This document shows positions 6,418 to 62,193 of a stretch of 64,000 nucleotides of DNA, piece by piece. Within the stretch, counting starts at the first letter, position 1, and each line of letters begins with the position of its first letter. Source of the stretch: Candidatus Kuenenia stuttgartensis (GTDB lineage Bacteria; Planctomycetota; Planctomycetia; Planctomycetales; Planctomycetaceae). Both the position numbers and the translations under genes were made by a program. Below the pieces are notes generated by a model that worked only from the letters and a program-made list of their open reading frames with translations, was not told where the DNA came from and searched no databases. The DNA is taken from NCBI GenBank assembly GCA_945904015.1, contig CAMDPK010000013.1, forward strand, positions 1-64,000, read 5' to 3'.

Positions 6418-8295
6418 TTACTCGTAGACCGGCATCGACGGATGTGGCCACATCGAGACGGGCGAGGTCGGCTCGGTCAACGACGTGAGTTGTTGCAGCA
6501 GGTCGCGGATGACTGCTTCGGCTTCGATCTTTTCATTGATCCAACGCTGGCTGGCTGAACGCCAGGCTGACTCGCGGACGTTGAGTTGTTCAGCTTGCGT
6601 CTGCAAATCGCCTTCGAGTTCGCGGAGCGAGCGTTCTTGCGACGCGGCCCATTCGGAGAGCGTTTGTTGCTCGGAACGGAACTCATCGCGCTGCGTTTGG
6701 AAGAGTTGTCGCATCTCGTCGAGTTCACCGCGTTGCTCGATCAATGCGTCACGCAGCCCGCGATAGTGGCCGGAGAGTTGTTGCTGGGCTTGATCGAGCC
6801 GCTGCTGGGCAACGTCCACGCCGCAGGCTTGAGTCATCTGTGCCCACGCCTCCTCGATGGCCATGCGCATTTCGAGCGTTGTGCGGTGGGTCTCTTCCAA
6901 TTCGGCTCGCAGCTTGTCGAGCCGCTCGCGACGGCCTTCCAAGTTGTTCGCGTGTAGCGCGAGCATGTCCTGCTGGCGACGCAGGTCGGCCAGTTGGCCG
7001 CCCCGTTCGCGTTCCCAATCGTCACGTTCGCGTTTGATTTGTTCGCGGTCATGCTCGGTGAATTGCTCGAACGCTCGCTGCGATTTGAAGAGCATCTCCC
7101 GTTCGCGATTGACGGAGCGTTCTCGTTCTTCGAGCAACGCTCGCACGCGGTCGAGTTGCGATTGCCGCAACCGGATGATCGCGTCCCCTTCTTCGAGTTG
7201 CCCGCGTGCCCGCTGTGACTCTCGGCGGAATTCATTTTGGGCGGCTTCAATTTCCTGCCGCGCCTTCGCGAGATGCTCTTGCTGAAACCGCAAACGGTTT
7301 TCGAGGACCGCCCGTTCGTGCCTGAGTTCCGTGAGCTGCTGCTCACGCTGCCGAGCGAACGCTTCTTGGCCTTCTTGCAGTTTGGCCTCTTCCACACGCG
7401 TCGCGGCTTCCAGATCGGCGAGTTGCTGCTGACGTTGCGCGAGAAGTTCGTGACGAACTCGCGTAACGGCGGCCTCGTGGACTTCGCGCAAGTGATCGAG
7501 GTCAGCTCGTTCACGGTCTCGCTGTGCGAAAAATTGGGTGCGGACGTCGTCGAACTCGGTGCGTTCGCGGATCAGAGACTCACGCTCGGCACGCAATTCA
7601 ACGGTGAGAACTTCCTCGGTGACGTCCTGTCGGACTCGCGATTTCGCGGCGTCGAGGTCGAGCAGTTTGACTCGGTACGCTTCGTCGAGCAGTTGCCGCT
7701 GTCGGTCGAACTCGGCCTGCTGAACTTGTCGGTCAGCATCGACCGTCGCCAGAGCTTGCTGCAACCGTTCTCGTTCGGCAGCGACTTTGCTGCCAACTTC
7801 GGCTAGCAGGCGGATGCGGTCGGATTCGAGTTGCTCGCGGCGTTTGGCGAGATCGGTTTGCTCGGTACGAAGCTGCTCGATCACGGTTTGTTGCGATGCG
7901 ATCTGTTCCGCGAGCGTCGCGTCACGCTGCCGTAGGATGTCCTCTTTGGATTGCAGTTCTTGTTCAGCTTCCTGTTTCCAGAGCCGCAGTTCACGTCGCT
8001 CGTGTTCGAGTTGCTGAAGTTGATCGGCGAGAATTTGTTCGCGCCGGTCAAGTTCAGAGAACCTCGCTCCGAGATCATCGACCAATTTTCTGGCGTGCGC
8101 CAGCATCTCGTTGTGCCGTGGAGCGGGAGCGGTGTCGAATTCCGGCCTCGGGACCGCTGATCCGCCGGGATCAACCGGATCAAAGCGGGCGACTCGGCCA
8201 TCGGCGAGCGGCACAAAACGAGACGACGGCTCCAGGGAGCCGTCGTGAGCATGCGGTCTCAATTCAGAACGGTCGGCTTGCGTCTGGTCGCTCAT
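6418..8295 (-). CDS. Long coiled-coil protein, function unknown
   Basis: This 625-residue protein is almost entirely heptad-like helix rich in Glu, Arg, Gln and Leu from about residue 60 to 590, with many repeats of the type LEHERRELR / QREQQLTELR. The N-terminal 60 residues are Pro/Asp-rich and a short C-terminal tail ends in a Pro/Met-rich segment. There is no signal peptide, membrane helix or catalytic motif, so it is probably a cytoplasmic structural or scaffold protein. Composition resembles SMC/myosin-like coiled coils but no ATPase head is present. It sits upstream of the permease gene and downstream of thioredoxin on the same strand. Name-level function cannot be assigned. Confidence 0.85.
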   Translation of the reverse strand: MSDQTQADRSELRPHAHDGSLEPSSRFVPLADGRVARFDPVDPGGSAVPRPEFDTAPAPRHNEMLAHARKLVDDLGARFSELDRREQILADQLQQLEHERRELRLWKQEAEQELQSKEDILRQRDATLAEQIASQQTVIEQLRTEQTDLAKRREQLESDRIRLLAEVGSKVAAERERLQQALATVDADRQVQQAEFDRQRQLLDEAYRVKLLDLDAAKSRVRQDVTEEVLTVELRAERESLIRERTEFDDVRTQFFAQRDRERADLDHLREVHEAAVTRVRHELLAQRQQQLADLEAATRVEEAKLQEGQEAFARQREQQLTELRHERAVLENRLRFQQEHLAKARQEIEAAQNEFRRESQRARGQLEEGDAIIRLRQSQLDRVRALLEERERSVNREREMLFKSQRAFEQFTEHDREQIKRERDDWERERGGQLADLRRQQDMLALHANNLEGRRERLDKLRAELEETHRTTLEMRMAIEEAWAQMTQACGVDVAQQRLDQAQQQLSGHYRGLRDALIEQRGELDEMRQLFQTQRDEFRSEQQTLSEWAASQERSLRELEGDLQTQAEQLNVRESAWRSASQRWINEKIEAEAVIRDLLQQLTSLTEPTSPVSMWPHPSMPVYE

Positions 8296-8309
8296 TCCGG
8301 GAGTCCTTT

Positions 8310-8388
8310 CCCATTTTCGATTTTCGATTTGCGATAGAGAATGCCAAGGCGATTCAATCGAAAATCAAAAATCGGCAATCGAAAATCG
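8310..8388. repeat. AT-rich repeats between trxA and coiled-coil gene
   Basis: Words such as TCGATTTTCGATTTGCGAT and, inverted, ATCGAAAATCAAAAATCGGC alternate through this gap and can pair with one another. This low-complexity palindromic filler separates the thioredoxin gene from the downstream coiled-coil gene. Confidence 0.5.
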
Positions 8389-8715
8389 CTAGAGCGTCTT
8401 GTCGATCATGCTTGCCAGCTTGGCCTTGTTGACCAAGCCGACCGAACGATCGACCGGCTGGCCGCCCTTGAACAGGATCACGGTCGGGATGCCTTGAATG
8501 CCATATTGCGACGCGATGCCGCCGTCACTGTCCGTGTTCACTTTGCCGACGCGCGCCTTGCCGGCGTAGTCGTTGGCAATCTCTTCAACGGTTGGGCCGA
8601 GCATCTTGCAGGGGCCACACCACGGAGCCCAAAAATCGACGAGCACCGGCTGGCTGCTCTCCAAAACTTGCGCGGAGAAATTGGCTTCCGTGAACTCCAA
8701 AACATTTCCGGCCAT
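8389..8715 (-). CDS. trxA: Thioredoxin
   Basis: This 108-residue cytoplasmic thiol-disulfide oxidoreductase has the canonical active site WCGPC at residues 32-36 (redox Cys33 and Cys36). The fold landmarks VLVDFWAPWCGP and GIQGIPTVILFKGG, with the conserved cis-Pro, are present. Length is typical for TrxA. The ATG at 8715 is preceded by an AGAAGG ribosome-binding site; the longer in-frame extension to 8943 has no thioredoxin homology and is not used. It reduces protein disulfides using electrons from thioredoxin reductase, which is not in the window. Confidence 0.96.
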   Translation of the reverse strand: MAGNVLEFTEANFSAQVLESSQPVLVDFWAPWCGPCKMLGPTVEEIANDYAGKARVGKVNTDSDGGIASQYGIQGIPTVILFKGGQPVDRSVGLVNKAKLASMIDKTL

Positions 8716-8960
8716 GACAAGGAACCTTCTGCAAGTGGGATGCGATGAGGTCGGTCTCCGAACTTCAGTCCGTTCAGCCCTCAAAAGTCGCGGGATTATT
8801 GGGCAACACCGAAAACCTGTCAACGCGATGCTGCGGCCGCTGCTCGTCACGAGGTTCCTGTCGCGGACGAACTGGCCGCGATATTCTGTCTTCGCCGTTT
8901 GGGCGGAATTGCCACGGATTTTGAAGTTTGAGACTCCGGACACTTGGGAGCTTGCCGTTC

Positions 8961-10250
8961 ATGTCAGCCCAGTTGCAGCAACGCCTGCTTGGTGAGTTGG
9001 AAAAGCTCGTACTGATCGACCCGCACACGCACATCAACCAGCTTGATCCAGCGTCGCACACGTTGGCGGACATTCTGGGTTACCACTACTACACCGAGTT
9101 GGCGCATTCAGCCGGCCTGCCGCGCGAACAAATCGAGCAGCCGGGCATCGACCCCAAGGAGAAAGTCAAACGGCTGGTCCCGAAGCTGGCGGACATCGAA
9201 AACACCGCTCAATACAGTTGGCTGCTGGAGATGTGCCGCGTTTTCTTTGGCTTCGAGGATGACCGCATCACGCCGGCGAATTGGGAAGCGTTGTACGACT
9301 CAGCCGCCAAAAACATGGCGCAGCCCGATTGGGAAGAGCAGGTGCTGCGGATCAGCAAGCTCGAACAAATCTTCCTGACGAACAACTTTGACGACCCGCT
9401 GACCGGCTTCAACACGCAGCGGTACATCCCGTGTTTGCGGACGGACGACCTCGTCTTTCATCTGACGAAGCCGGAGACTCGCACGCGACTCGCGAAGGCG
9501 ACTGGCATCGAATTGAGTGGTGCCGCCTCGCTGAAGCAAGCGATCGGCAAGCTGTTTGACCATTTCGTCTCGAAGAATGCGAAAGCGTGCGCGATCTCGC
9601 TGCCGCCGGATTTTGAGCCGATTCGCATCGAAGCCGCCTCCGCCGATCCCATTTTGCGAGCAGTTGCCGCCGGCAAAGAGTTGTCCGCCGACGAGCAACG
9701 AACGCTTAGCCGCTTCGTCTTCTGGACGTTGGCCGAGCAGTGTGCGGATCACAAATTGCCGTTCGATTTGATGATCGGCGTCAATCGCCGCGTGTACGAA
9801 GCCGGTGTCTATCAGGGGCAAGACTTGTTCGACCAGCGCGTCTCGCTGATCCAGTACAAGGCATTGTTCAACGCGTTTCCGCAGGTGGTGTTCCCGATCT
9901 CGGTGCTCGCTCAGATCAGCAATCAAGAGCTGGTCAGCTACTCGTGGATCTTCCCGAACGTCGTGACCAACGGACACTGGTGGTACTCGAACATCCCGGC
10001 CTACATCGAGACCGATTGCCGAGCTCGCTTGCAGGCGGTGCCGCGAACCAAGCAGATTGGCTACTACAGCGACATGTACAAATTGGAATTCGCGCTGCCG
10101 AAATTTGGGATGTATCGCCGAATCCTGGCCAAAGTGCTGGCCGAGGACTTCGTCGTGGGACGTGGCTGGCCGGAAGAGCGAGCTCTGGAACTCGGCCGCC
10201 AAAATCTGCGGGGAAATGTCGAGACGATCTTCGGAGTGGGCGGCGAGTAA
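8961..10250 (+). CDS. Uronate isomerase-like amidohydrolase
   Basis: This 429-residue protein resembles the UxaC/glucuronate isomerase branch of the amidohydrolase superfamily. The metal-binding HxH motif appears near residue 23 in [13 protein letters not shown], and later segments ([43 protein letters not shown]) match the C-terminal part of that family. Isomerisation of a hexuronate to a ketouronate is the family reaction, but planctomycete homologues may have other substrates and no pathway partners are adjacent. The ATG at 8961 has a GGGAG site nine bases upstream. The gene stands alone between trxA (divergent) and a regulatory phosphatase gene. Confidence 0.75.
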
Positions 10251-21337: not shown

Positions 21338-21387
21338 GAGTCACCTTGTTGAAACCGAGTCTGAACTGTTCCGAGAGTCAGCTTTTG

Positions 21388-21463
21388 AAAACCAGCACGA
21401 CGCGCAAGCGAGTGGTTGAACTTCCGAAAACTCGATCACTCGCCGGCGCGTCGTGCTGGTTTT
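21388..21463. repeat. Inverted repeat between gcvH and gcvPA
   Basis: Arms beginning AAAACCAGCACGACGCGC (21388) and ending GCGCGTCGTGCTGGTTTT (21463) are complementary over about 27 bases with a few mismatches. The same family occurs at 31832-31892 between mutS and the selenoprotein gene. It lies within the gcv operon and could form a strong RNA hairpin that tunes expression of gcvPA relative to gcvH. Confidence 0.75.
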
Positions 21464-21473
21464 GAGTTCCAAA

Positions 21474-23672: not shown

Positions 23673-25355
23673 ATGCGCGTGTCATGGATTTTGCGAAAGG
23701 TTTGGATCAGCTTATGCGTCTGCGGATTATTGAGCCTTCCGGCGTGCCAGCAGACTACGACTTCTCAGCCCGCGATCCGGGTTGGTGACTCCGAATCGGC
23801 CGATCGTGGAGCCAAAGAACCGGCCCAGCCGCCGCGCGACGCCAGCGACGACTTCTTCGACAACGGCGTCATCCCGCAACTCAAGATCGAGTTGAAAGAG
23901 TCGCAGGCGAAAAAACTCCGGGAGGACGCTCGCCGCTACGCGAAGTGCAAGCTGATCGAGACGACTGCCGACGGCGAGACGACCTACACCGATGTCGCCA
24001 TCAAGCTCAAAGGAGCCGCCGGCAGCTTTCGCGAGTTCGACGATCGTCCCGCCTTCACGCTCAACATGCACAAGCATTTGAAAGGCCAAACCTTTCATGC
24101 AATGGAAAAGCTGCATCTCAACAACTCGGTGCAAGACGAGTCGTACTTGTGCGAGTGGTTGTGCTCCGACCTCTGCCGTGACGCGAAAGTGCCGGCCACG
24201 CGAGTCACTCACGCCCGCGTCTGGCTGAACGATCGCGACCTCGGTCTGTATGTGTTGAAGGAGGGCTTCGATCAGCCGTTCCTCAAACGTCACTTCGGCG
24301 ATGCGACCGGCAACTTCTACGACGGCGGCTTTGTGCAGGACATCGACGCCGATCTCGAAAAGGATTCCGGCCAAGGCCCCGACGATCACAGCGACCTGCG
24401 AGCCTTGCAAGCCGCGTGCCTCGAACCCGATCCCGAAAAACGCTGGCCCGTAATCGAAGAGCGGTTGGACGTGAACGCCTTCGTCAGCTTCATGGCCCTC
24501 GAACTGATGACGTGCCATTGGGACGGCTACACGCCCAACAAAAACAACTACCGGATTTATTTCGAGCCTCCGCACGGCAAGGCCCGCTTCCTACCGCACG
24601 GCATGGATCAGATGTTCGGCGATCCCGGCTTCCCGATCCTGGAGTACTTCGAGCCGATGGTCGCCAGCGCGGTGATGCACAATCCCGACTGGCGAAAGCG
24701 CTACCGCGAGCGAGTCGCCGAATTGCTGCCGCTCTTCGAGCCAAAGCGACTGCACGACAAACTCGACGCGGTCCTCGCCCGCCTGCAACCGGTCGTGGCC
24801 ACGATGGGCGAAGAGTTCGTGAACGCTCATGCCGACCGAGTCCGTGAACTCAAGGAACGGATAGCCGCGCGTGAGCCGAATCTCCGCGAGCAACTCCAAA
24901 ACGGCGACCCGACGCCGCTGGAGTTCGAGGGCAACACTCCGATCGAACTCGCCGACTGGTTCCCCGCTCAAGAGATCGACGACACGAAGGTCGAAGAGGT
25001 CGAGATCGACGGCCAGAAACGCTACTCGATCCAAGCCGACGACTCCGGCCAGTGCGTCGCCTCATGGCGTCGCAAAGTGCTGCTCGCCAAAGGCCGCTAC
25101 CGCATCGAAGCGCGAATGCGCACCGAATCGGTCGAACCGCGCGAAGACGAACAAGGCACCGGAGCTGGCCTCCGCATCTCCGGCGGCAAACGCGACAACA
25201 AACTCACCGGCGACACCGACTGGCAAATGGTCAGCCACGAATTCGAAGTGCTCGAAGACGTGCGCGACGTGATCCTCGTCGCCGAACTTCGAGCGACTCG
25301 CGGACGAGTCTGGATCGAGCCGATCGCACACCTATTCCGCATTGAGGTTCCGTAG
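23673..25355 (+). CDS. CotH-like kinase-family lipoprotein
   Basis: This 560-residue protein has a lipoprotein signal ending LLSLPAC (lipobox cysteine at about residue 25). The central region (about 65-380) matches the spore-coat CotH family: LKGAAGSFREFDDRPAF, LNNSVQDESYLCEWL, and PHGMDQMFGDPGFP carrying a candidate metal-binding HGMDQ. CotH proteins are atypical kinases that phosphorylate secreted proteins; planctomycetes have many homologues of unknown substrate. A C-terminal domain of about 150 residues looks like a beta-sandwich or carbohydrate-binding module. A TGGAGGTG ribosome-binding site precedes the ATG at 23673. Confidence 0.85.
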   Translation: MRVSWILRKVWISLCVCGLLSLPACQQTTTSQPAIRVGDSESADRGAKEPAQPPRDASDDFFDNGVIPQLKIELKESQAKKLREDARRYAKCKLIETTADGETTYTDVAIKLKGAAGSFREFDDRPAFTLNMHKHLKGQTFHAMEKLHLNNSVQDESYLCEWLCSDLCRDAKVPATRVTHARVWLNDRDLGLYVLKEGFDQPFLKRHFGDATGNFYDGGFVQDIDADLEKDSGQGPDDHSDLRALQAACLEPDPEKRWPVIEERLDVNAFVSFMALELMTCHWDGYTPNKNNYRIYFEPPHGKARFLPHGMDQMFGDPGFPILEYFEPMVASAVMHNPDWRKRYRERVAELLPLFEPKRLHDKLDAVLARLQPVVATMGEEFVNAHADRVRELKERIAAREPNLREQLQNGDPTPLEFEGNTPIELADWFPAQEIDDTKVEEVEIDGQKRYSIQADDSGQCVASWRRKVLLAKGRYRIEARMRTESVEPREDEQGTGAGLRISGGKRDNKLTGDTDWQMVSHEFEVLEDVRDVILVAELRATRGRVWIEPIAHLFRIEVP

Positions 25356-25438
25356 TCGGTTGTCCCGGCGTTTGCGTCTGCTGAATGGCTCGCGTCGGGG
25401 AGGCTGTCTCCTGGCCACCGGATGCAGCCTAGTATATT

Positions 25439-25497
25439 GCTAGGCCGCACGCGTCGCGATTGGTGCTAGCTCGCACGCGGCCTATCTCGGAATTCCA
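25439..25497 (-). other. Degenerate attC-like remnant (inverted)
   Basis: This stretch contains GCACGCGGCCTAT followed by CTCGGAATT, words that occur in the same order on the plus strand of the attC-like site at 61994-62068. It is therefore a partial copy in the opposite orientation to the cassette array that starts at 25554. A nearby GGCCGCACGCG word makes it locally palindromic. Confidence 0.45.
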
Positions 25498-25553
25498 CTC
25501 GCAGTCTCGTCAAACCACGATAGCTTGATTTCCCGGCACAACAGAGGCACTCT

Positions 25554-25627
25554 GCCGTTCCATTCCAAGTGACACCGCTGACGGCCCTCTCGTACTAGGC
25601 CGCGTGCGGCTCACTTAACTGTTCGGC
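25554..25627 (+). other. attC-like recombination site A
   Basis: The right (R'-like) end is GTTCGGC at 25621-25627. The left end GCCGTTC (25554) is a degenerate counterpart of GCCGAAC. The arms share AAGTGA..CCGC with the complement of the right arm. The right arm (TAGGCCGCGTGCGGCTCACT) is nearly identical to the arm of the site at 61994-62068. The first cassette ORF begins eight bases after the site. Confidence 0.6.
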
Positions 25628-25634
25628 AACAACC

Positions 25635-26153
25635 ATGAATCACCATTTGCTAATGGCCGCATGGCTTGTGACGGCGGTCATTGCCGGCTGCGGCGCGTCG
25701 TCTCCCCACGACGATCGCGCGCGAACCGACGTTTCGGAACGGCAATTGGACGATGCGACGTTCAACGCGGGACTTGATCCGAGCGACAACCGAATCGTGG
25801 CGTTGGTGGCGTGGCTAAAGCACAAGGGCGTCACGCTCGAATACACGGGCTCCGCCGAGGGTGGCGGGTGGTGGCGGGTCACCGAGCCGAAGACCCCGCC
25901 TGATTACGATGTGGTGTTCAGCATCCGCAGCTTTCCCGCCTGGGCGTCGGAAGAACAGATGCGTGAGGCCCTCGATATCAATCTGGCGTACCAGCTCAAC
26001 GCCACGGCACATCTTGCAATGTCCTTCGGAGGTTGCAGCGGGACGCAGGCGGAGGCAGAACTTCCGAAATCCGACGAGGCATTGCCCAAGGTCAAAGGTT
26101 TGCCAGTCACGAAAGCGGTGGAACAATGGTTCATGGAATACAAAGCCCGCTAA
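25635..26153 (+). CDS. Cassette 1: small putative lipoprotein
   Basis: This 172-residue protein has a lipoprotein signal (LVTAVIAGC, lipobox Cys near residue 19) and a Ser/Asp-rich linker. Its soluble domain includes IVALVAWLKHKGVTLEY, WWRVTEPKTPPDYDVVFS and a tail of charged helices. No catalytic motif is visible and I do not recognise the family. The ATG at 25635 lies eight bases after the attC-like end GTTCGGC, and the next attC-like site begins at the stop codon, so the gene fills its cassette exactly. It probably encodes an envelope lipoprotein. Confidence 0.8.
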   Translation: MNHHLLMAAWLVTAVIAGCGASSPHDDRARTDVSERQLDDATFNAGLDPSDNRIVALVAWLKHKGVTLEYTGSAEGGGWWRVTEPKTPPDYDVVFSIRSFPAWASEEQMREALDINLAYQLNATAHLAMSFGGCSGTQAEAELPKSDEALPKVKGLPVTKAVEQWFMEYKAR

Positions 26154-26225
26154 CAATGCCATCGCGCTCTGGTTGCAATGGAACGTCCTATCGAGCCGGG
26201 TTACGGAGCCTGGGCCGTTCAGTGA
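26150..26225 (+). other. attC-like recombination site B
   Basis: Left end CGCTAAC (26150-26156) overlaps the stop codon of cassette 1; right end is GTTCAGT (26219-26225). Complementarity between the arms is weak, so this is the least certain site in the first array, but its length (76 bases) and placement between two cassette ORFs fit. Confidence 0.45.
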
Positions 26226-26233
26226 ATCAGGCT

Positions 26234-26788
26234 ATGCTGAATCTCAAAACGGCTGTTTCATCGTTGTTGCTGACGATGGTCATAGGGGGCTGTGGTTCAC
26301 CCACGGAATCACCGGTGGCAGGCAACACATGGGTGACTTCGGATGATGGAAAGCTGGCACTGCGATTGTCAGTGATGACGCCGCGCGTCAAGGCGAACGG
26401 GATCATTCAAGTGGCCGCTGAGATCCGAAACGCGAGCCAGCAGAAAATCACGATTCTCCGACCGTTTGGCGACCGGTACGCTGCGAAAACGCCCGGTATG
26501 AAGATGTGGGACGGGAAACGCCAGATCGGCTACACGGGACCGGCGGTGACTTACGTGATTGGGTCGAGTGCCTTTGCGGTCATCGGTCCCGGCGAGGTCG
26601 TTGAAGACAAGCTGGAATTGGGGATCGATAACTTCGCGGGCATGGAATCGCCGGGTCGATACACGTTGCGATACGACTATTCCTATGATGGCTATTGGGA
26701 TACGACAGCAGCCGCAGGAAACAGCGGTATCAAAGACGCTTGGCGTGGCACGATCAGCAGCCGCGAGGTTCAGGTTTTCAGGGAATGA
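26234..26788 (+). CDS. Cassette 2: small putative lipoprotein
   Basis: This 184-residue protein begins with a clear lipoprotein signal (MLNLKTAVSSLLLTMVIGGC, lipobox Cys20). The rest looks like a single beta-rich domain: LALRLSVMTPRVKANGIIQV, AEIRNASQQKITILRPF and a late YTLRYDYSYDGYWD, reminiscent of immunoglobulin-like or intracellular-proteinase-inhibitor-type folds. That resemblance is weak. The start at 26234 is chosen for the signal peptide; the frame runs open upstream through cassette 1. It lies between attC-like sites B and C. Confidence 0.8.
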   Translation: MLNLKTAVSSLLLTMVIGGCGSPTESPVAGNTWVTSDDGKLALRLSVMTPRVKANGIIQVAAEIRNASQQKITILRPFGDRYAAKTPGMKMWDGKRQIGYTGPAVTYVIGSSAFAVIGPGEVVEDKLELGIDNFAGMESPGRYTLRYDYSYDGYWDTTAAAGNSGIKDAWRGTISSREVQVFRE

Positions 26789-26802
26789 ACTGCGTTGGAA
26801 TC

Positions 26803-26892
26803 GCCGAACCATCGCATGCACCGGAGCCGGCGGTCGGCTCGGTTTCAAGTGGAGAGTCATCGCCGCCGGCCCGGTGATGCGTGTCGTTAGCG
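26803..26892 (+). other. attC-like recombination site C
   Basis: Left end GCCGAAC (26803-26809), right end GTTAGCG (26886-26892). The left arm CATCGCATGCACCGGAGCCG pairs with the right arm CGCCGGCCCGGTGATGCG over most positions, with a roughly 25-base central spacer. It begins 14 bases after the stop codon of cassette 2. This is one of the clearest sites. Confidence 0.75.
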
Positions 26893-26909
26893 GTTTCGAT
26901 CACACCAAA

Positions 26910-28079
26910 ATGATGAGCGATAAAATAATGTCCAAGACTGTGATTAACGCGAACTTGTTCCGATTCCCTTTCGTGTTGCTGTTCCTGTCCGCTCCTGCCG
27001 CTGTAGCCGCAGACTGGGCTCCGATGCTTGACGTTGAGGTCTACGAGCGGGCGGACTGGATCGTGGTGGGGACACTGCACGAGCAGGGTAAGGCCCCGGA
27101 CTTTACCTGGCGAATCACGGTGGAAGACACGATCAAGGGACGTCCTCCCAAGTCCTTTTCGGTGGCGGCGAACAAGTTCCTGTTCGGTGACATCGCCGGG
27201 AATCGCTCCCTATTCGCGGTGAGCACGGCGGCGGACCGGCAGTACCTGTTCCATCCCGCCTGCGTGCGCGATGCCGCGAAGGGCAAGGCGGACATGGCTG
27301 CGGCGAAGAAGCTGCTTGACGATCCGGCCGCCGCGATCCTAAACCCGACCCGGCCGCCAGATGCCAACCTGGCCTACATAATCGGGGAACGTTACGCACT
27401 CGGTGCCAACATATGGACGCAGCCAGTGACCCGCATCCAGGCTATGGACTATTTGCGACACGCCCTGGACACCGACGATGCGAACGCCAAGCTGCAAGTA
27501 CTCAAGGCCCTGCGCCGCACTGGCGACCGTTCGCTGGAAGCGGACATCATCATGCGGCTGAATGTGGAGACTCCAGCGTACGCGATCGATCCAATGGTCG
27601 GATACCTCGAGGAAGGCGGTACGACGTCCGGGCGCAAGCACCTGGAAGCACTGCTTGAACTTAGCGCGCCGGGCTACCCGAAGGCTCACCAACTCGCCAA
27701 TCCCTGCGCGCAGGCCCTCGGCCGCATCGGCCACCCCGACAGTATCCCGTTCATCAAGCGCGCCGCAGCACACGGGGTGCAGCGTGCGATCGAAGCGCTG
27801 ATCCATCACGGCGATATGGATTCGTTCGACATGTTGTTCCAGACCTACATTGCCGCGAAGCAACCAGGCTCCCAGCCGAACGCGCTGCATTGGCTCGTCC
27901 GCCGGTCGAACCGGCCGGTTGAGGCGTGGATGCATCCCTCATCCTACACTACCGACGATGGCATCGAGATGAAGTCAAAGTGGACGGCATGGTGGGAGAA
28001 ACACCGGAAGGGGATGGAGATCGTGGCGGATATCCACGCAGCGCAAAGGGCGTGGAAACGGGAGCGTGCTTCGCCGTAG
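26910..28079 (+). CDS. Cassette 3: exported HEAT-repeat-like protein
   Basis: This protein of about 389 residues has a signal peptide (NLFRFPFVLLFLSAPAAVAADW) and a mature part rich in paired helices from about residue 170 onward (AKLQVLKALRRTGDRSLEAD, AQALGRIGHPDSIPFIKRAA). That is the pattern of HEAT/PBS-lyase-like repeats. The N-terminal 130 residues contain ERADWIVVGTLHEQGKAPDF and look like a separate beta-rich domain. In-frame ATGs at 26910, 26913 and 26928 are all possible starts; none has a clear ribosome-binding site. It occupies the largest cassette and probably functions as an extracytoplasmic protein-binding scaffold. Confidence 0.78.
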   Translation: MMSDKIMSKTVINANLFRFPFVLLFLSAPAAVAADWAPMLDVEVYERADWIVVGTLHEQGKAPDFTWRITVEDTIKGRPPKSFSVAANKFLFGDIAGNRSLFAVSTAADRQYLFHPACVRDAAKGKADMAAAKKLLDDPAAAILNPTRPPDANLAYIIGERYALGANIWTQPVTRIQAMDYLRHALDTDDANAKLQVLKALRRTGDRSLEADIIMRLNVETPAYAIDPMVGYLEEGGTTSGRKHLEALLELSAPGYPKAHQLANPCAQALGRIGHPDSIPFIKRAAAHGVQRAIEALIHHGDMDSFDMLFQTYIAAKQPGSQPNALHWLVRRSNRPVEAWMHPSSYTTDDGIEMKSKWTAWWEKHRKGMEIVADIHAAQRAWKRERASP

Positions 28080-28138
28080 CTAGCCCGTGAATGGTGAATG
28101 GCCGATTCGCCTAATTTGTAACGCGACGAAGCCGGTTC

Positions 28139-28228
28139 CGCTAACCATCGGATGCACGGGAGACCTCGGCGCAGTCGATTCTGAAATCATAATCAACTCC
28201 TCGGTCCCCGTGATCCAGGTCGTTCGGC
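28139..28228 (+). other. attC-like recombination site D
   Basis: Left end CGCTAAC (28139-28145), right end GTTCGGC (28222-28228). Left arm CATCGGATGCACGGGAGACC and right arm GGTCCCCGTGATCCAGG are complementary with few bulges. The spacer is AT-richer. It lies 59 bases after cassette 3 and 10 bases before the cassette 4 start. Confidence 0.75.
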
Positions 28229-28238
28229 GGGCAATCGA

Positions 28239-28877
28239 ATGAGACCATCGCCAATCCTCTTCATTTACGTAGCTCTGGTCGGTTGCAGCCCTGCGCCACA
28301 GAAGGCAACGCCAGCCCCATTACGATTGACGGTGCGGCAACCGGTGTTGGACGTGAATCGATCTCACATCGCCGACATTCTACAGGTCGCAGCGTCCTAC
28401 CCCGACCGGACGACGTTTTTTCGTGATTCGGCAGGATCAATGGTGGCTCCAAAATACGGTGACCCGATGCTCGACCGAGCCGCTGAAGCGTTGTCGGACA
28501 TCGCCCGCCCATGGACTTTGAAAAAGATCCAGATGGCTTATGAATCCGAAACGGAGTTGGACCGCCGCTGTCACTTACTTCGAGCCCTAGCTGCAAGCCG
28601 TGATCCGCGTGTGGCTATCCGACTGCACGATTTGCAGGGTGACCCTTCGCTGGAGATCCGCATGGCAGCTCTAACCGGACTCTGGGATCACTTTGTTCAA
28701 TACGATGGTATATGGGCAGGCGGAACGGAACAGATGTTCGAGACGGAAGCAGATTGGTGGACTGAAAACAAGGATCGGTTGAGCACGGCGGCACGTGCGC
28801 TCGCCGAACAAGATGATGCATCGGAGTTGCCGACTGGGCGCAATCTGGAATCAACGGCACCGGCGGCAACCCGGTGA
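28239..28877 (+). CDS. Cassette 4: small putative lipoprotein
   Basis: This 212-residue protein begins MRPSPILFIYVALVGCSPAP, a short lipoprotein signal with lipobox Cys16. The body includes YPDRTTFFRDSAGSMVAP, paired helices (LDRRCHLLRALAASRDPRVA, LQGDPSLEIRMAALTGLWDH) like one or two HEAT-type repeats, and a WWTENKDRLS segment also seen in spirit in cassette 3 (AWWEKHRKG). The last 24 or so codons lie within attC-like site E, a common feature of cassette ORFs. I do not recognise the family. The HEAT-like helices suggest distant kinship with cassette 3. Confidence 0.78.
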   Translation: MRPSPILFIYVALVGCSPAPQKATPAPLRLTVRQPVLDVNRSHIADILQVAASYPDRTTFFRDSAGSMVAPKYGDPMLDRAAEALSDIARPWTLKKIQMAYESETELDRRCHLLRALAASRDPRVAIRLHDLQGDPSLEIRMAALTGLWDHFVQYDGIWAGGTEQMFETEADWWTENKDRLSTAARALAEQDDASELPTGRNLESTAPAATR

Positions 28878-28892
28878 TCATTGTCGTTCGGC
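28803..28892 (+). other. attC-like recombination site E
   Basis: Left end GCCGAAC (28803-28809), right end GTTCGGC (28886-28892), perfectly complementary. Arms AAGATGATGCATCGGAGTTG and CAACCCGGTGATCATTG pair over most positions. It overlaps the 3' end of the cassette 4 gene and closes the array 73 bases before the convergent mutS stop. Confidence 0.78.
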
Positions 28893-28965
28893 GGTATGAG
28901 CGCCCTAAGAAGTCATTCAATCTCGCGGTGAGCTCCGCTGTCGGAATCGCCACTCCTGGGCGCGG

Positions 28966-31722
28966 TCACTTCGCCAACTCTTGCCGAAACTCATTCAATT
29001 TCTGCAAGGCCGCGATCGGCGTGAGTTGCTCGATGTCGAGCGACTTTAACTTCTCGATCACCGGATGATCCGGTTCGATGAACAATGAGCGTTGGCGGTC
29101 GCGCGATCTCGTTTTGCGTTCGGGGATTTTGACTTTTCCCGATTCGTCGACGTGGTCGGATTCGAGTTGGGCGAGGACGACTTGAGCACGCTCGACGACG
29201 TCGCGTGGCAGGCCGGCGATTTTGGCGACGTGGATGCCGTAGCTCTTGTCGGCCGGGCCTTCCACGATCTTGTGCAGGAACACGATGTCGTCACCGTGCT
29301 CGCGGATCGCGACGTTCCAGTTGCTGGTTTCGGGGAGCGTCTTGGTCAGTTCGGTCAGTTCGTGGTAGTGCGTGGCGAACAGCGTGCGGCAGCGGATTTG
29401 ATCGTGCAGGAATTCCGTGACGGCCCAAGCCAGGGAGATGCCATCGTAGGTGCTCGTGCCGCGGCCGATCTCGTCGAGGATCACGAGGCTGCGGTCGCTG
29501 GCGGAGTTCAGAATCCGCGCGGTCTCGGTCATCTCGACCATAAACGTGCTCTGGCCTTTGGACAGTTCGTCGCTTGCTCCGACGCGAGCGAAGATGCGAT
29601 CGGCGATCCCGATGCGAGCCTCGCTGGCCGGGATGAAGCTGCCCATCTGAGCCATGATCGTCAGCAGCGCGGCTTGGCGGATGTAGGTGCTCTTGCCGGC
29701 CATGTTCGGGCCGGTGATGAGCTGGACGCGACCGTGGCGAGGGGTGAGAGAGGAAACTGGATCATTGCTGGGCAAAGTGGCATGCGGTTCGGAGTGTGGA
29801 CCCTCTACTTCCGAATTCGGCGTTCCTCGCCCCTCGCCCCTCGCCCCTTGCCCCTTGCCTAGTCGCACGTCGTTTGGCACGAACGACCCAGACGGCATCA
29901 GCTTGTCGAGGACTGGATGCCGGCCTTCGCTGATGTCGAGGATCGGATCGGTCGTCAGTTCTGGGCGGCAATAGCCTTGGTTGACAGCGAGCGTGGCCAG
30001 CGCAGCGAGGACATCGACTTCGGAGAGCACATCGGCCGTTTGCTTGAGTCGCGCGGTGGCGGCGGCGACTCGTTCGCGGAGGGCGGCGAAGAGTTCTTGT
30101 TCCAGCGAGATCGCGCGTTCTTCGGCTCGCAGGACTTTGTCTTCGTACTCTTTCAGTTCCGGCGTGATGAATCGTTCTTGGTTTTTGAGCGTTTGCTTGC
30201 GGATGTACTCTGGCGGAATCTTCGCGGCCTGAGCGGCGGTGACTTCCAGGTAGTAGCCGAAGACTTTGTTGAACCCGACCTTCAAATTCGGCAGGCCGAG
30301 CCGTTCGGATTCCTTCGCCTGATAACCGGCGATCCACTCTTTGCCGCCGCGTGCGAGGTCTCGCAATTCGTCGAGCGTCCCGTTGAAGCCGGGGCGAATC
30401 ACGCCGCCGTCGGTGGTCAGCAGCGGCGGTTCATCGACGAGCGTGGCGTCGATGACGGCGCGGATTTCGGCATTCAGATCAAGGTCCGCTTCGAGCATTT
30501 TCAACAACTCGCACTGTCGCCCAGCGAGCTTGGCCTTGAGCTTCGGCAACAGTGCGAGCGAGCGGGTCAGGCTGCCGAGATCGCGCGGGCTGGCTCGGCC
30601 GGTGGCGACCTTCGCGGTCAGGCGTTGCAGGTCGTAGGTCTCGGCGAGGATCTCGCGCAGGTCGCGGCAGAACATCGTGTCGCGCGTCAATTCCTCGACG
30701 GCATCCAGTCGGCGATTGATCGCGGCGATGTTGGTCAGCGGATTCGACAGCCAATCGGCCAACAGCCGTGCTCCCATCGGCGAGACAGTTTCGTCGAGGA
30801 CCGACAGCAGGCTGTTGTCCCGTTTCCCTTCACGGATCGTGCGAGTCAGTTCGAGGCTCGCTCGCGTCGCTTCGTCGATGATGAGCGACGTGCCGCGGCG
30901 ATACGGTTCCAATCGGCTGATGTGAGCCAGCGAAGACTTCTGCATCTCCTGGACGTATTCGAGCAACGCTCCGGCGGCTGTCACGCCGGCGGAGTTCGCG
31001 TCGATATCCATGCCTTCGAGCGTCGACGTGCCGAAGTGTTTCAGCAGTGCTGATCGGCACGCCTCCTCCGCCCAACACCACGGAGCACGCGGCGTTGCCA
31101 GCAAACCGCTGCGAGCGAACAGCGGGCGCAGCCGTTCGTCGTTGGTGAGATGTTCGGGGTGCAAACACTCGCTTGGCCGGATGCGGGCGAGTTCGTCCGC
31201 GAGTTGAGCCGGTTCCAAATCGGTCGTGACGAATCGGCCGGTCGAAACTTCCAGCCAGGCGAGACCGACGGTTCCGGCTCGGCTCGGCCACACGCTGGCG
31301 AGGAAATTCGATTCGCGCGGGTCGAGCAGCGCTTCGTCGGTCAGCGTGCCAGGCGTGACGACTTGCGTGACCTCGCGCTTGATCATCCCCTTGGCGAGCT
31401 TCGGGTCTTCCATCTGCTCGCAGACGGCGACGCGGTGTCCGGCGACGATCAACTTTCGCAGATAGCCTTCGAGGGCGTGATACGGAAACCCCGCCATCGG
31501 GATCGGGTTGGGCGAGCCTTTGTCGCGACTGGTCAGCGTCAGGCCGAGCACTTTGGACGAGACGACCGCGTCCTCGAAGAACAGTTCGTAGAAGTCTCCC
31601 ATCCGAAACAGCAGGATCGAGCCGGGGTTCTGCCGTTTGACTTCGAGGTAACGCTCCATCGCCGGCGTGAGATTGTGCGGCGCGGGATTCGTGGCAGAAG
31701 TTTTCTCCGGCGGCTGGCTCAT
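28966..31722 (-). CDS. mutS: DNA mismatch repair protein MutS
   Basis: This 918-residue mismatch-recognition ATPase has its mismatch-binding Phe-x-Glu at 44-46 (GDFYELF), the core and clamp domains, Walker [10 protein letters not shown] at 671-679, Walker [17 protein letters not shown] and the helix-turn-helix dimerisation end. It recruits MutL to mispaired DNA. The ATG at 31722 has a GAGGA site; a TTG nine codons upstream is a poorer choice. An insertion of about 43 residues (622-664, low-complexity GARGEGRG at its start) sits just before Walker A and is encoded by a repeat element (29731-29859). mutL is not in the window. Confidence 0.97.
29731..29859. repeat. Repeat element inserted in frame in mutS
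   Basis: One end carries tandem GAGGGGC-type units (read on the minus strand as GGCGAGGGGCGAGG) and the other end carries the complement (CTCACCCCTCGCC). Translated it gives a Gly/Arg/Ser/Pro-rich insert of about 43 residues not expected in MutS at this position. Confidence 0.7.
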
Positions 31723-31831
31723 GTCGTCCTCAAGGGGAGAGTCTTGCAATGCGACGGCAGAATAACGGGCTTGCTCGCAAGATTCTCGTCCGCTGGGAGG
31801 CTAAGAACTGAGCCAGGCGGGTCAACACAGT

Positions 31832-47685: not shown

Positions 47686-47710
47686 CGAATGCCTCGTGGT
47701 GGTTGATCTT

Positions 47711-47803
47711 GTAACCCGCCGCGTCAGCAAGGGCGAACACTTCCGCACATGTTGAAACCGACTGTCGCTTGAAGCGTCCGCCCTTGCTGACGCGGCGGGT
47801 TAC
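47711..47803. repeat. 93-bp inverted repeat, 25-bp perfect arms
   Basis: Arms GTAACCCGCCGCGTCAGCAAGGGCG-type (47711-47735) and exact complement (47779-47803) flank a 43-base centre. It lies between the divergent Rieske and DUF58 genes, partly in the leader of each. Confidence 0.85.
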
Positions 47804-47867
47804 GAAGACAAACAAACGCAGAGTAGAGCCTCGCTCGTGTGGCCTCAATCGTACTACGATCCCGCTC

Positions 47868-60763: not shown

Positions 60764-60835
60764 GACTTGAATTCCAAAACACGATGGCCAGTTTAGCATT
60801 CGCGATGCGCTACGGAATCGCTTTCACCGTGCGCC

Positions 60836-60934
60836 GCCTAACGACAAAGTTCAGTTGCCGGGGCCGCCAGCAAGGACATGACGTTGTGTAAAACCAATAT
60901 TGCGGTCCCGGTAAACTGCAACGCTTTGTTGAAC
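60836..60934 (-). other. attC-like recombination site H
   Basis: On the minus strand the site opens GTTCAAC and closes with the canonical core GTTAGGC (60842 down to 60836). The arms align well: CAACAAAGCGTTGCAGTTTA pairs with the complement of CAACTGAACTTTGTCGTTA, with CCGGGACCGC / CCGGGGCCGC inside. It begins 16 bases after the HNH stop codon. Confidence 0.75.
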
Positions 60935-60949
60935 CCGGCCCCAAACTCT

Positions 60950-61600
60950 TCAGATGTCGCAGTCATCTGCTGTTGGAACCCGCGCCACCAAGTCAACCGG
61001 GTCCGGGAATCTGTGAGGGATCAGCCCGATGGCAAAAGGCCAAGCGGGGCTGGCTCCTTCACTGCGTTCCGAAATGCTGTTCTTATCGAGGTCGTCGAAA
61101 AGTGACGCCAGCTTTGGACGGGCACCTTCTCTGGGCTCCAGCATGACGTCCATAAGTCCGTTCTCGACACAGTACTGGATAGCGAGTTTGAGATAACGGC
61201 GGAGGAGTCTCAACGGCGGGAATTTCTTCTTCTTGGCCATCCACTCCATGAGATCGAGCGCGTTCTTCGAACTGTTGCAAGAGCGGCACGCCACGACCAG
61301 ATTGTCTGCGGAGTGTTTTCCGCCTTTGAACTGCGGGATCAAGTGGTCAAGCGTTAAATACGACTGGCTGCCGCAGTAGCAGCAAGCATCGGAAGCGTCC
61401 AATTTCTCCATCTCGTCTTTGAGGAAAGTTGCGATCTGGTGCGTGCCGCGCAACAAACCGTAATAGAGCTTGTTCCGAACGATATAGTCGATCTGCTGGT
61501 ATTTGGGTTTGTCGTGTCGGTCTCCCGTGAAGGCCATCGCGAGGTTGGCATACGACCAAAATAACGATTCACCGACGGTCCTCGGAATGACAGTTGCCAT
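60950..61600 (-). CDS. HNH endonuclease-like protein (cassette)
   Basis: This 216-residue protein has an HNH motif in a zinc-ribbon setting: CCYCGSQSYLTLDHLIPQFK, then GGKHSADNLVVACRSCNSSK and a following helix. The Cys pairs (CYC.. and CRSC) and LDH..P.. give a typical HNH nuclease core at about residues 72-122. The N-terminal 65 residues and C-terminal 85 are unassigned. The start at 61600 is used because an upstream 37-codon extension crosses the attC-like site. The role may be DNA restriction, phage defence or cassette-borne nuclease; there is no partner methylase. Confidence 0.82.
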   Translation of the reverse strand: MATVIPRTVGESLFWSYANLAMAFTGDRHDKPKYQQIDYIVRNKLYYGLLRGTHQIATFLKDEMEKLDASDACCYCGSQSYLTLDHLIPQFKGGKHSADNLVVACRSCNSSKNALDLMEWMAKKKKFPPLRLLRRYLKLAIQYCVENGLMDVMLEPREGARPKLASLFDDLDKNSISERSEGASPAWPFAIGLIPHRFPDPVDLVARVPTADDCDI

Positions 61601-61623
61601 GATTGCCTCAGCCGTGAAATAGG

Positions 61624-61730
61624 GCCGAACGTCAAAGCTAACCCGACGGCACAACCGGGCGCGAGAGACTTCCAATTCTGAATGCGAAGCGTATTTTGAA
61701 TTGTGCGACAAGTGATGTCGTGTTTTCGGC
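61624..61730 (-). other. attC-like recombination site G
   Basis: On the minus strand it runs from GCCGAAA (61730 down to 61724) to GTTCGGC (61630 down to 61624). The arms share AAC.CGAC..CAC in complementary positions but pairing is interrupted, so this is a weaker site. It begins two bases after the stop of the 81-residue gene and ends 23 bases before the HNH start. Confidence 0.5.
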
Positions 61731-61731
61731 G

Positions 61732-61977
61732 TTACGCAATGGCGTCCTGTGTCCTCTGAAGAACCGTTTCGTTCCGCTGAGGAAGTGAGTATTTAACGCC
61801 ATCGAAGTTTACATGAAGGCCGGTTGAAGTTTGAAACGCGTATCCGTTATCCATCCAGTCGGTGCCTTGGAGATCATTGACGGCGATCTGAATAAGATAC
61901 TTATGGACGGTGTATTTCGTGCCTTTGTCGTCACAAAGGATGAACGTTTCGGCTAGCTGTCTACGCTCTCTTGCCAT
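61732..61977 (-). CDS. Small hypothetical protein (cassette)
   Basis: This 81-residue protein reads MARERRQLAETFILCDDKGT and continues YTVHKYLIQIAVNDLQGTDW, GYAFQTSTGLHVNFDGVKYS. It looks like a small all-beta or alpha/beta domain. There is no signal peptide or catalytic motif. The ATG at 61977 has an AAAGGA site six bases upstream, better than ATGs at 61983 or 61992, which would place the start nearer the attC-like end. It occupies one cassette, and its family is unknown. Confidence 0.72.
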   Translation of the reverse strand: MARERRQLAETFILCDDKGTKYTVHKYLIQIAVNDLQGTDWMDNGYAFQTSTGLHVNFDGVKYSLPQRNETVLQRTQDAIA

Positions 61978-61993
61978 GTGCATTCCTTTCATT

Positions 61994-62068
61994 GCCCAAC
62001 AGTTTAAGTGAGCCGCACGCGGCCTATTTCTAGCTGGCCAAGTCGAGGTTCACTCGGAATTGTTCGGC
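61994..62068 (-). other. attC-like recombination site F
   Basis: On the minus strand it opens GCCGAAC (62068 down to 62062) and closes with the canonical GTTGGGC (62000 down to 61994). The arms align GCC.AACA.TT..AGTGA.CC.C with few mismatches. The right arm TAGGCCGCGTGCGGCTCACT is shared with site A at 25554-25627. Confidence 0.78.
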
Positions 62069-62193
62069 AGATTGCCTTGGTTGCTCCGGAAAAACAAGAC
62101 TCAACAGCCACAGGAATCGGCGGCTTGAATGTCGTCGGCCACGCGCGGTCGAACACGGTCGGCTGATCGACTGATTTCAGTTCGTTCTGCGTT
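62069..62193. other. Intergenic stretch, nothing identified
   Basis: 125 bases lie between attC-like site F and the nested repeat. No ORF, hairpin or repeat is evident. Confidence 0.35.

Follow-up and report, generated by a model that had tools for sequence, protein, structure and literature searches.

The window, i.e., the whole stretch of 64,000 bp that we analyzed (contig C13), comes from a freshwater planctomycete and contains a small row of integron-type gene cassettes flanked by a cotH-like gene and mutS, both of them ordinary genes. A preliminary description of the sequence had read positions 25554 to 28892 as an array of four cassettes lying between five attC-like sites. The four consecutive open reading frames (ORFs) on one strand were confirmed, and so was the spacing of 8 to 18 bases between a site and the next start codon. 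Together with the features listed below, these ORFs probably form an integron module with an attI recombination site and its promoter Pc (attI-Pc) followed by three cassettes, the first with two ORFs, without an integrase gene (intI).

25441 to 25627, plus strand: predicted attI-Pc leader, which contains the reported site at 25554; homologous to the intI-attI regions of congeners
25525 to 25553, plus strand: Pc-like promoter, TTGATT-N17-CACTCT; TTGAYN-N17-CATTCT is equally placed in the attI regions of the congeners G004, G006, and G010
25597 to 25627, plus strand: attI-like core AGGCCGCGTGCGGCTCACTTAACTGTTCGGC, with the crossover GTT at 25621 to 25623
25635 to 26153, plus strand: ORF 1, cassette 1, 172 amino acids, lipoprotein-like start
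26234 to 26788, plus strand: ORF 2, second ORF of cassette 1, 184 amino acids, lipoprotein-like start
26803 to 26892, plus strand: attC of cassette 1; bottom-strand fold z −4.3, 83 bits with covariance model R2
26910 to 28079, plus strand: ORF 3, cassette 2, 389 amino acids, HEAT-repeat-like, signal-peptide-like start
28139 to 28228, plus strand: attC of cassette 2; bottom-strand fold z −3.0, R2 76 bits
28239 to 28877, plus strand: ORF 4, cassette 3, 212 amino acids, lipoprotein-like start; stop codon within the following attC
28803 to 28892, plus strand: attC of cassette 3; bottom-strand fold z −3.1, R2 92 bits

To call attC sites, we used our own covariance models, and fold z scores compare the bottom strand with dinucleotide shuffles. 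The sites at 26803, 28139, and 28803, which belong to the training set of R2, share the pattern AAC..ATGCAccGGAG..CCggTGAT..GTCGTT and have the architecture of an attC site, i.e., R''/R' and L''/L' arms, an unpaired spacer, and two extrahelical bases on one arm only. Among 13 distinct sites of the genome, in an alignment that was fitted to the structure, both sides change in 18 of 26 pairs, and the 72 compensatory cells exceed both the shuffled mean of 26 and the maximum of 24 reached by slid versions. Three of the five reported sites were called as attC by the covariance model, while those at 25554 and 26150 lack the architecture and score no more than 7.8 bits. The site at 26150 does not fold (z +0.9; R2 6.9 bits, which is in the chance range for the stretch), and that at 25554 folds (z −3.0) but has an R'' without AAC and reaches its 7.8 bits on the wrong strand, again in the chance range. 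The poor MAFFT alignment of the five reported sites is explained by the two that are not attC. A strict DNA pattern for attC gave no match, and a hand-made hairpin scan was dropped in favor of the covariance models because ordinary palindromes outranked the attC sites.

Searches covered the genome as a whole as well as ~1.2 Mb of contigs. With E < 1e-3 as the threshold, covariance model R1, built from the three sites of the array, identified eight further sites in the window genome, and R2 identified 21, i.e., 18 in addition to these three. R2 sites are present in 47 of 59 genomes including the window genome (46 of 58 relatives), and they adjoin a genuine intI gene, in divergent orientation to it, in the congeners G003, G004, and G010 and in G014, G015, G017, G021, and G022 of other genera. 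The R2 sites, including the three of the array, are integron attC sites. The GTTCGGC-type R boxes, previously suggested as plausible for planctomycetes, are ordinary in this lineage, and an attC model for Planctomycetes has been published, so that the site type is known (PMC8352920). We note that one relative in the same class (G047:C1) has at least 70 attC matches and one intI, i.e., a large planctomycete integron.

That the sites are instead unrelated to integrons, being intergenic palindromes such as terminators or repetitive extragenic palindrome-like elements in an ordinary gene cluster, is suggested by strong non-attC hairpins elsewhere in the window. However, the conserved one-sided extrahelical bases and the covariation speak against this explanation, and the intI linkage in relatives and the exact cassette units common to or swapped between species contradict it, so that we regard it as extremely improbable. 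Long, near-perfect intergenic hairpins that are not attC lie at 47709 to 47805 and 21386 to 21465 of the window and at L009:4526-4621; they share GTAACCC..GTCAGC..GGGTTAC and are perhaps a dispersed repeat.

The region around 25554 has a different identity. None of 200 shuffles aligned with the G006 intI-attI region as well as window positions 25441 to 25634 did, and positions 25402 to 25640 align with that of G010 with a score of 146 versus a permuted maximum of 53; the latter alignment reaches to 6 bp before the G010 intI start codon. The window leader and the congener attI regions have in common a promoter-like TTGAYN-N17-CAYTCT at a fixed place, GGCCGCGYGCG repeats in either orientation, and the core CACTTAACTGTTNNGC directly before the first gene. 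Of the core at 25597 to 25627, 27 bp recur without change before the attC unit of C187, and other units are preceded by similar cores. A profile trained on the attI regions of G010, G004, and G006 alone (the intI-linked profile) had its strongest match on C247 (8e-32), followed by the window leader (4.8e-10), and detected ten places at E < 0.01 in 1.17 Mb, while reversed sequence gave none below 0.4. In nine of these ten cases, the contig carries an attC farther downstream; the exception is C6, where there is a gene and no recognizable attC. As judged by homology and position, an attI with Pc precedes the first cassette, as in a complete integron, and the region around 25554 belongs to this attI and its promoter. 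The Pc of the window leader is presumably active. In this leader, GGCCGCGYGCG is inverted around Pc (arms at 25472 to 25484 and 25596 to 25608), and the motif also occurs in other leaders and upstream of congener intI; these motifs could serve as operators for both intI and cassettes or provide additional binding sites for IntI.

The leader is not confined to this locus. We identified about a dozen dispersed copies of ~145 to 190 bp in the genome, almost every one of which is followed by an attC cassette, and the same leader occupies the attI position beside intI in G004, G006, and G010. Copies lie upstream of attC units on C187, C65, C256, C233, C160, C70, C247, and C19 (three copies) and in a second unit of the window; further sites are a leader with a gene on C6 and a core on C96. 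In 972 kb of other contigs, we found the C6 leader and one marginal match, and no attC at E < 0.1. The leader is also present at attC loci of congeners outside the training set (G007:C409, G008:C77, and G006:C528), and the attC loci examined in other genera had no leader. An exact-pattern scan of GTDB species genomes returned six places, i.e., four in congeners, one in a further lake draft, and one in a groundwater draft; attC lies downstream within the locus in four of the six, and G002:C230 has one in L113. Transposon-like common ends flanking the units were not found, and the right flanks of the units are without similarity.

The second window unit (60834 to 62135, minus strand), which had escaped the preliminary description, has the order leader, genes, attC:

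61994 to 62135, minus strand: second predicted attI-Pc leader; leader profile E 9.9e-22 (the sequence is in the training set), intI-linked profile 1e-6
60834 to 60932, minus strand: attC closing the unit; R2 39 bits, E 6.5e-8, outside the training set

An ORF of this unit (60950 to 61711, 253 amino acids) has, by eye, an HNH-endonuclease-like CxxC..DHL..C..C stretch. On C19 (L089 = C19:52000-64810, 6716-9485), three leader-gene-attC units lie in tandem and two of the leaders are nearly identical; these cassettes seem to carry their own attI-Pc.

Comparisons between related loci provide natural breakpoints. C233 and G009:C25 are sister loci with leaders that are 88% and downstream flanks that are 94% identical, while the cassettes between them are unrelated; the breakpoints coincide with the core GTT and the GTT of the attC R'. 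Conversely, one cassette is common to C19a and G007:C299, with 91% identity between the core and the end of attC, while the flanks are 50 to 60% identical. At the primary attI, C247 diverges from both G004 and G007:C409 at the core GTT. The GTT breakpoints of the sister loci are read directly from the DNA, as are the attC sites, the homology and dispersal of attI-Pc, and the intI gene, and they are the best evidence that the dispersed leaders would work as attI. They also bear on the alternative of plain attG-type insertion, in which the leader would be merely a common promoter or operator without a part in recombination. Scattered attG sites are known targets of cassette insertion by IntI, as far as the work of Loot et al. 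2024 is related in PMC12901181, and some attC loci of our set are without a leader. However, exchange breakpoints at the leader GTT, the same ~145- to 190-bp leader in the attI position beside intI in three congeners, and a conserved promoter, which attG sites would not bear, make this alternative quite unlikely.

In agreement with the preliminary description, no IntI is encoded in the 64 kb, and intI is lacking at the locus; the intI gene sought elsewhere in the genome was found on contig C36. This is the sole genuine IntI of the genome, with 416 to 421 bits against TIGR02249 (cut-off, 265) and 346 bits against the narrower NF011946, for which it is under the cut-off (435); tyrosine-recombinase residues and the IntI-specific insertion are visible in its sequence. 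C36, C233, and C247 start with the same ~130 to 147 bases, apparently the end of an insertion sequence, and on C247 an attI leader and five attC sites follow. Based on this common start and the attI and attC sites of C247, the primary integron probably spans both contigs, with intI (C36), the insertion sequence, and then attI and five attC sites (C247), the joining of the contigs being our reconstruction. The flank downstream of intI is common to the window genome (G000), G003, and G004. An N-terminal extension of ~100 to 150 residues precedes the SAM-like domain in the IntI proteins of C36 (L009:205-1602), G003, G004, G006, G007, G017, and G021, and those of G015 and G022 are without most of it. 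The G010 intI (L191:3511-4509, C52) is shortened to 332 amino acids with the catalytic C-terminal part gone, and attI and three attC sites are kept.

The chromosomal context of the window array comprises the following features:

23673 to 25355, plus strand: CotH-like gene, left neighbor; Pfam CotH PF08757, E 2e-33
25356 to 25440, no strand: inserted DNA between the CotH-like gene and the leader (left edge); common to the congener G006 and absent from G005, G009, and G011
28893 to 28965, no strand: right edge of the inserted DNA; missing from the empty-site congeners
28966 to 31749, minus strand: mutS, right neighbor; orthologues in 58 of 59 genomes

In G005, G009, and G011, the site is empty, and the two neighbors are convergent genes whose stop codons lie ~7 bp apart, versus a gap of 3,610 bp in the window. 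The right edge had no similarity to the right flanks of other leader-attC units, and neither Rfam families nor tRNAs cover the region. One explanation for the locus is decay, i.e., a second complete integron of the G010 lineage with intI, attI, and array at cotH-mutS lost its intI, and the other units are inert relics. In line with this, the homology to G010 ends 6 bp before the intI start, which would fit a removal of intI from the start codon onward, the G010 intI is itself truncated, and degradation of integrons has been proposed as the origin of clusters of attC sites lacking integron-integrases (CALINs) (PMC9024848). Against it, decay needs about a dozen independent intI losses in one genome, an intI remnant was sought to the left of the window leader and not found, and the tandem units of C19 and the exchange at intI-less loci point to activity without a local intI. 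We therefore consider decay a possible but doubtful account.

Under the reading that we favor as the more probable one, the window array is an integron module without an integrase and belongs to a set of about a dozen attI-Pc modules dispersed in the genome, whose cassettes are exchangeable at the attI GTT. Cassettes would be recognized via folded attC bottom strands and would recombine with a dispersed attI leader at its GTT, where exchange would be possible; Pc would then drive the first genes of the inserted cassettes. The recombinase would most likely be the single genuine IntI on C36, the sole evident recombinase of its kind, acting in trans. For the wider proposal, a distributed integron in which one IntI serves about a dozen attI-Pc sites, each expressing its own first cassette, and in which the leader multiplied within the genome, we see the chances as evenly balanced.

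Several observations weigh against these proposals. The window leader is closer to the attI of G010 than to the attI type paired with the C36 IntI, which belongs to another lineage than the G010 IntI (48% identical); the C36 IntI may therefore recognize the window leader poorly. No clearly empty leader was seen in the loci covered, the ends of the leader are not sharply defined, and the attC loci on C135, C5, C96, and C242 lack a full leader in the DNA examined, two of them near contig ends. The source genome is a draft assembly of 286 contigs. Finally, the cotH and mutS trees disagree, with the window genome grouping with G006 in one and with G009 in the other, and because of this conflict they give no single verdict of gain or loss for the array at cotH-mutS.

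The cassette genes have few relatives. The 11 congeners are without any match to the four genes, and elsewhere there are only sporadic distant homologues. ORF 1, for which Pfam and NCBIfam gave no match, has weak homologues in three other genera. Homologues of ORF 2 (43 to 44%) are limited to G079, G130, and G136, and the G079 and G130 genes have an attC context. ORF 3 matches HEAT_2 at E 6e-5, which is under the Pfam cut-off, and neither ORF 3 nor ORF 4 had a match among 197 relatives searched. By eye, all four proteins have lipobox- or signal-peptide-like N-termini (e.g., VIAGC, VIGGC, and ALVGC), and based on these starts the cassettes at 25635 to 28877 seem to encode exported proteins. As to the number of cassettes, the attC-cassette reading of the preliminary description stands, while its four cassettes become three; the presence of two ORFs in cassette 1 fits either a single cassette with two genes or two former cassettes whose intervening attC was lost.

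Integrons typically have one attI, beside intI, and mainly the cassettes nearest Pc are expressed (PMC9024848). If our reading is true, many dispersed attI-Pc modules would lift this limit, and many cassettes could simultaneously occupy the first position with its strong expression. Some CALINs would have another origin, as modules served in trans rather than decayed integrons, and natural variants would become available of non-class 1 attI sites, which are poorly described. We found no reports of many or dispersed attI-Pc modules in the open-access literature.

Among known systems, the locus shares with sedentary chromosomal integrons, as in G003, G004, and G010, the attC model, a homologous attI-Pc, and the order of attI followed by cassettes. 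It differs from them in lacking intI, in its short array, and in the many attI per genome instead of one. As in attG insertion (Loot et al. 2024, as related in PMC12901181), cassettes lie at scattered chromosomal places away from intI. However, attG sites are described there as divergent from classical att sites, whereas the cassettes here follow a conserved attI-like leader with a promoter and not an insertion point without classical att architecture. The delta-attI cassettes of class 1 and 2 integrons (PMC12901181) likewise have attI sequence outside the usual place, but there short attI pieces take the place of attC at the cassette 3' end, whereas here a long leader lies 5' of the genes and attC is kept at the 3' end. 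The closest match is to CALINs (a term of IntegronFinder), usually defined as two or more attC sites without intI nearby: three attC sites (26803, 28139, and 28803) lie within 2 kb, intI is on another contig with no remnant at the locus, and the cassettes have few relatives. The CALIN assignment of the preliminary description thus holds, while the array tail that it had offered as the other option is better read as an array head with its own integration site, since 25554 belongs to the attI-Pc leader. Unlike in CALINs, the definition of which considers attC and intI only, the locus keeps an attI-Pc leader before the first gene, as do about a dozen places in the genome, and annotation seeking attC and intI alone overlooks this third component. 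The locus is a CALIN by definition, and its architecture makes it a new variant.

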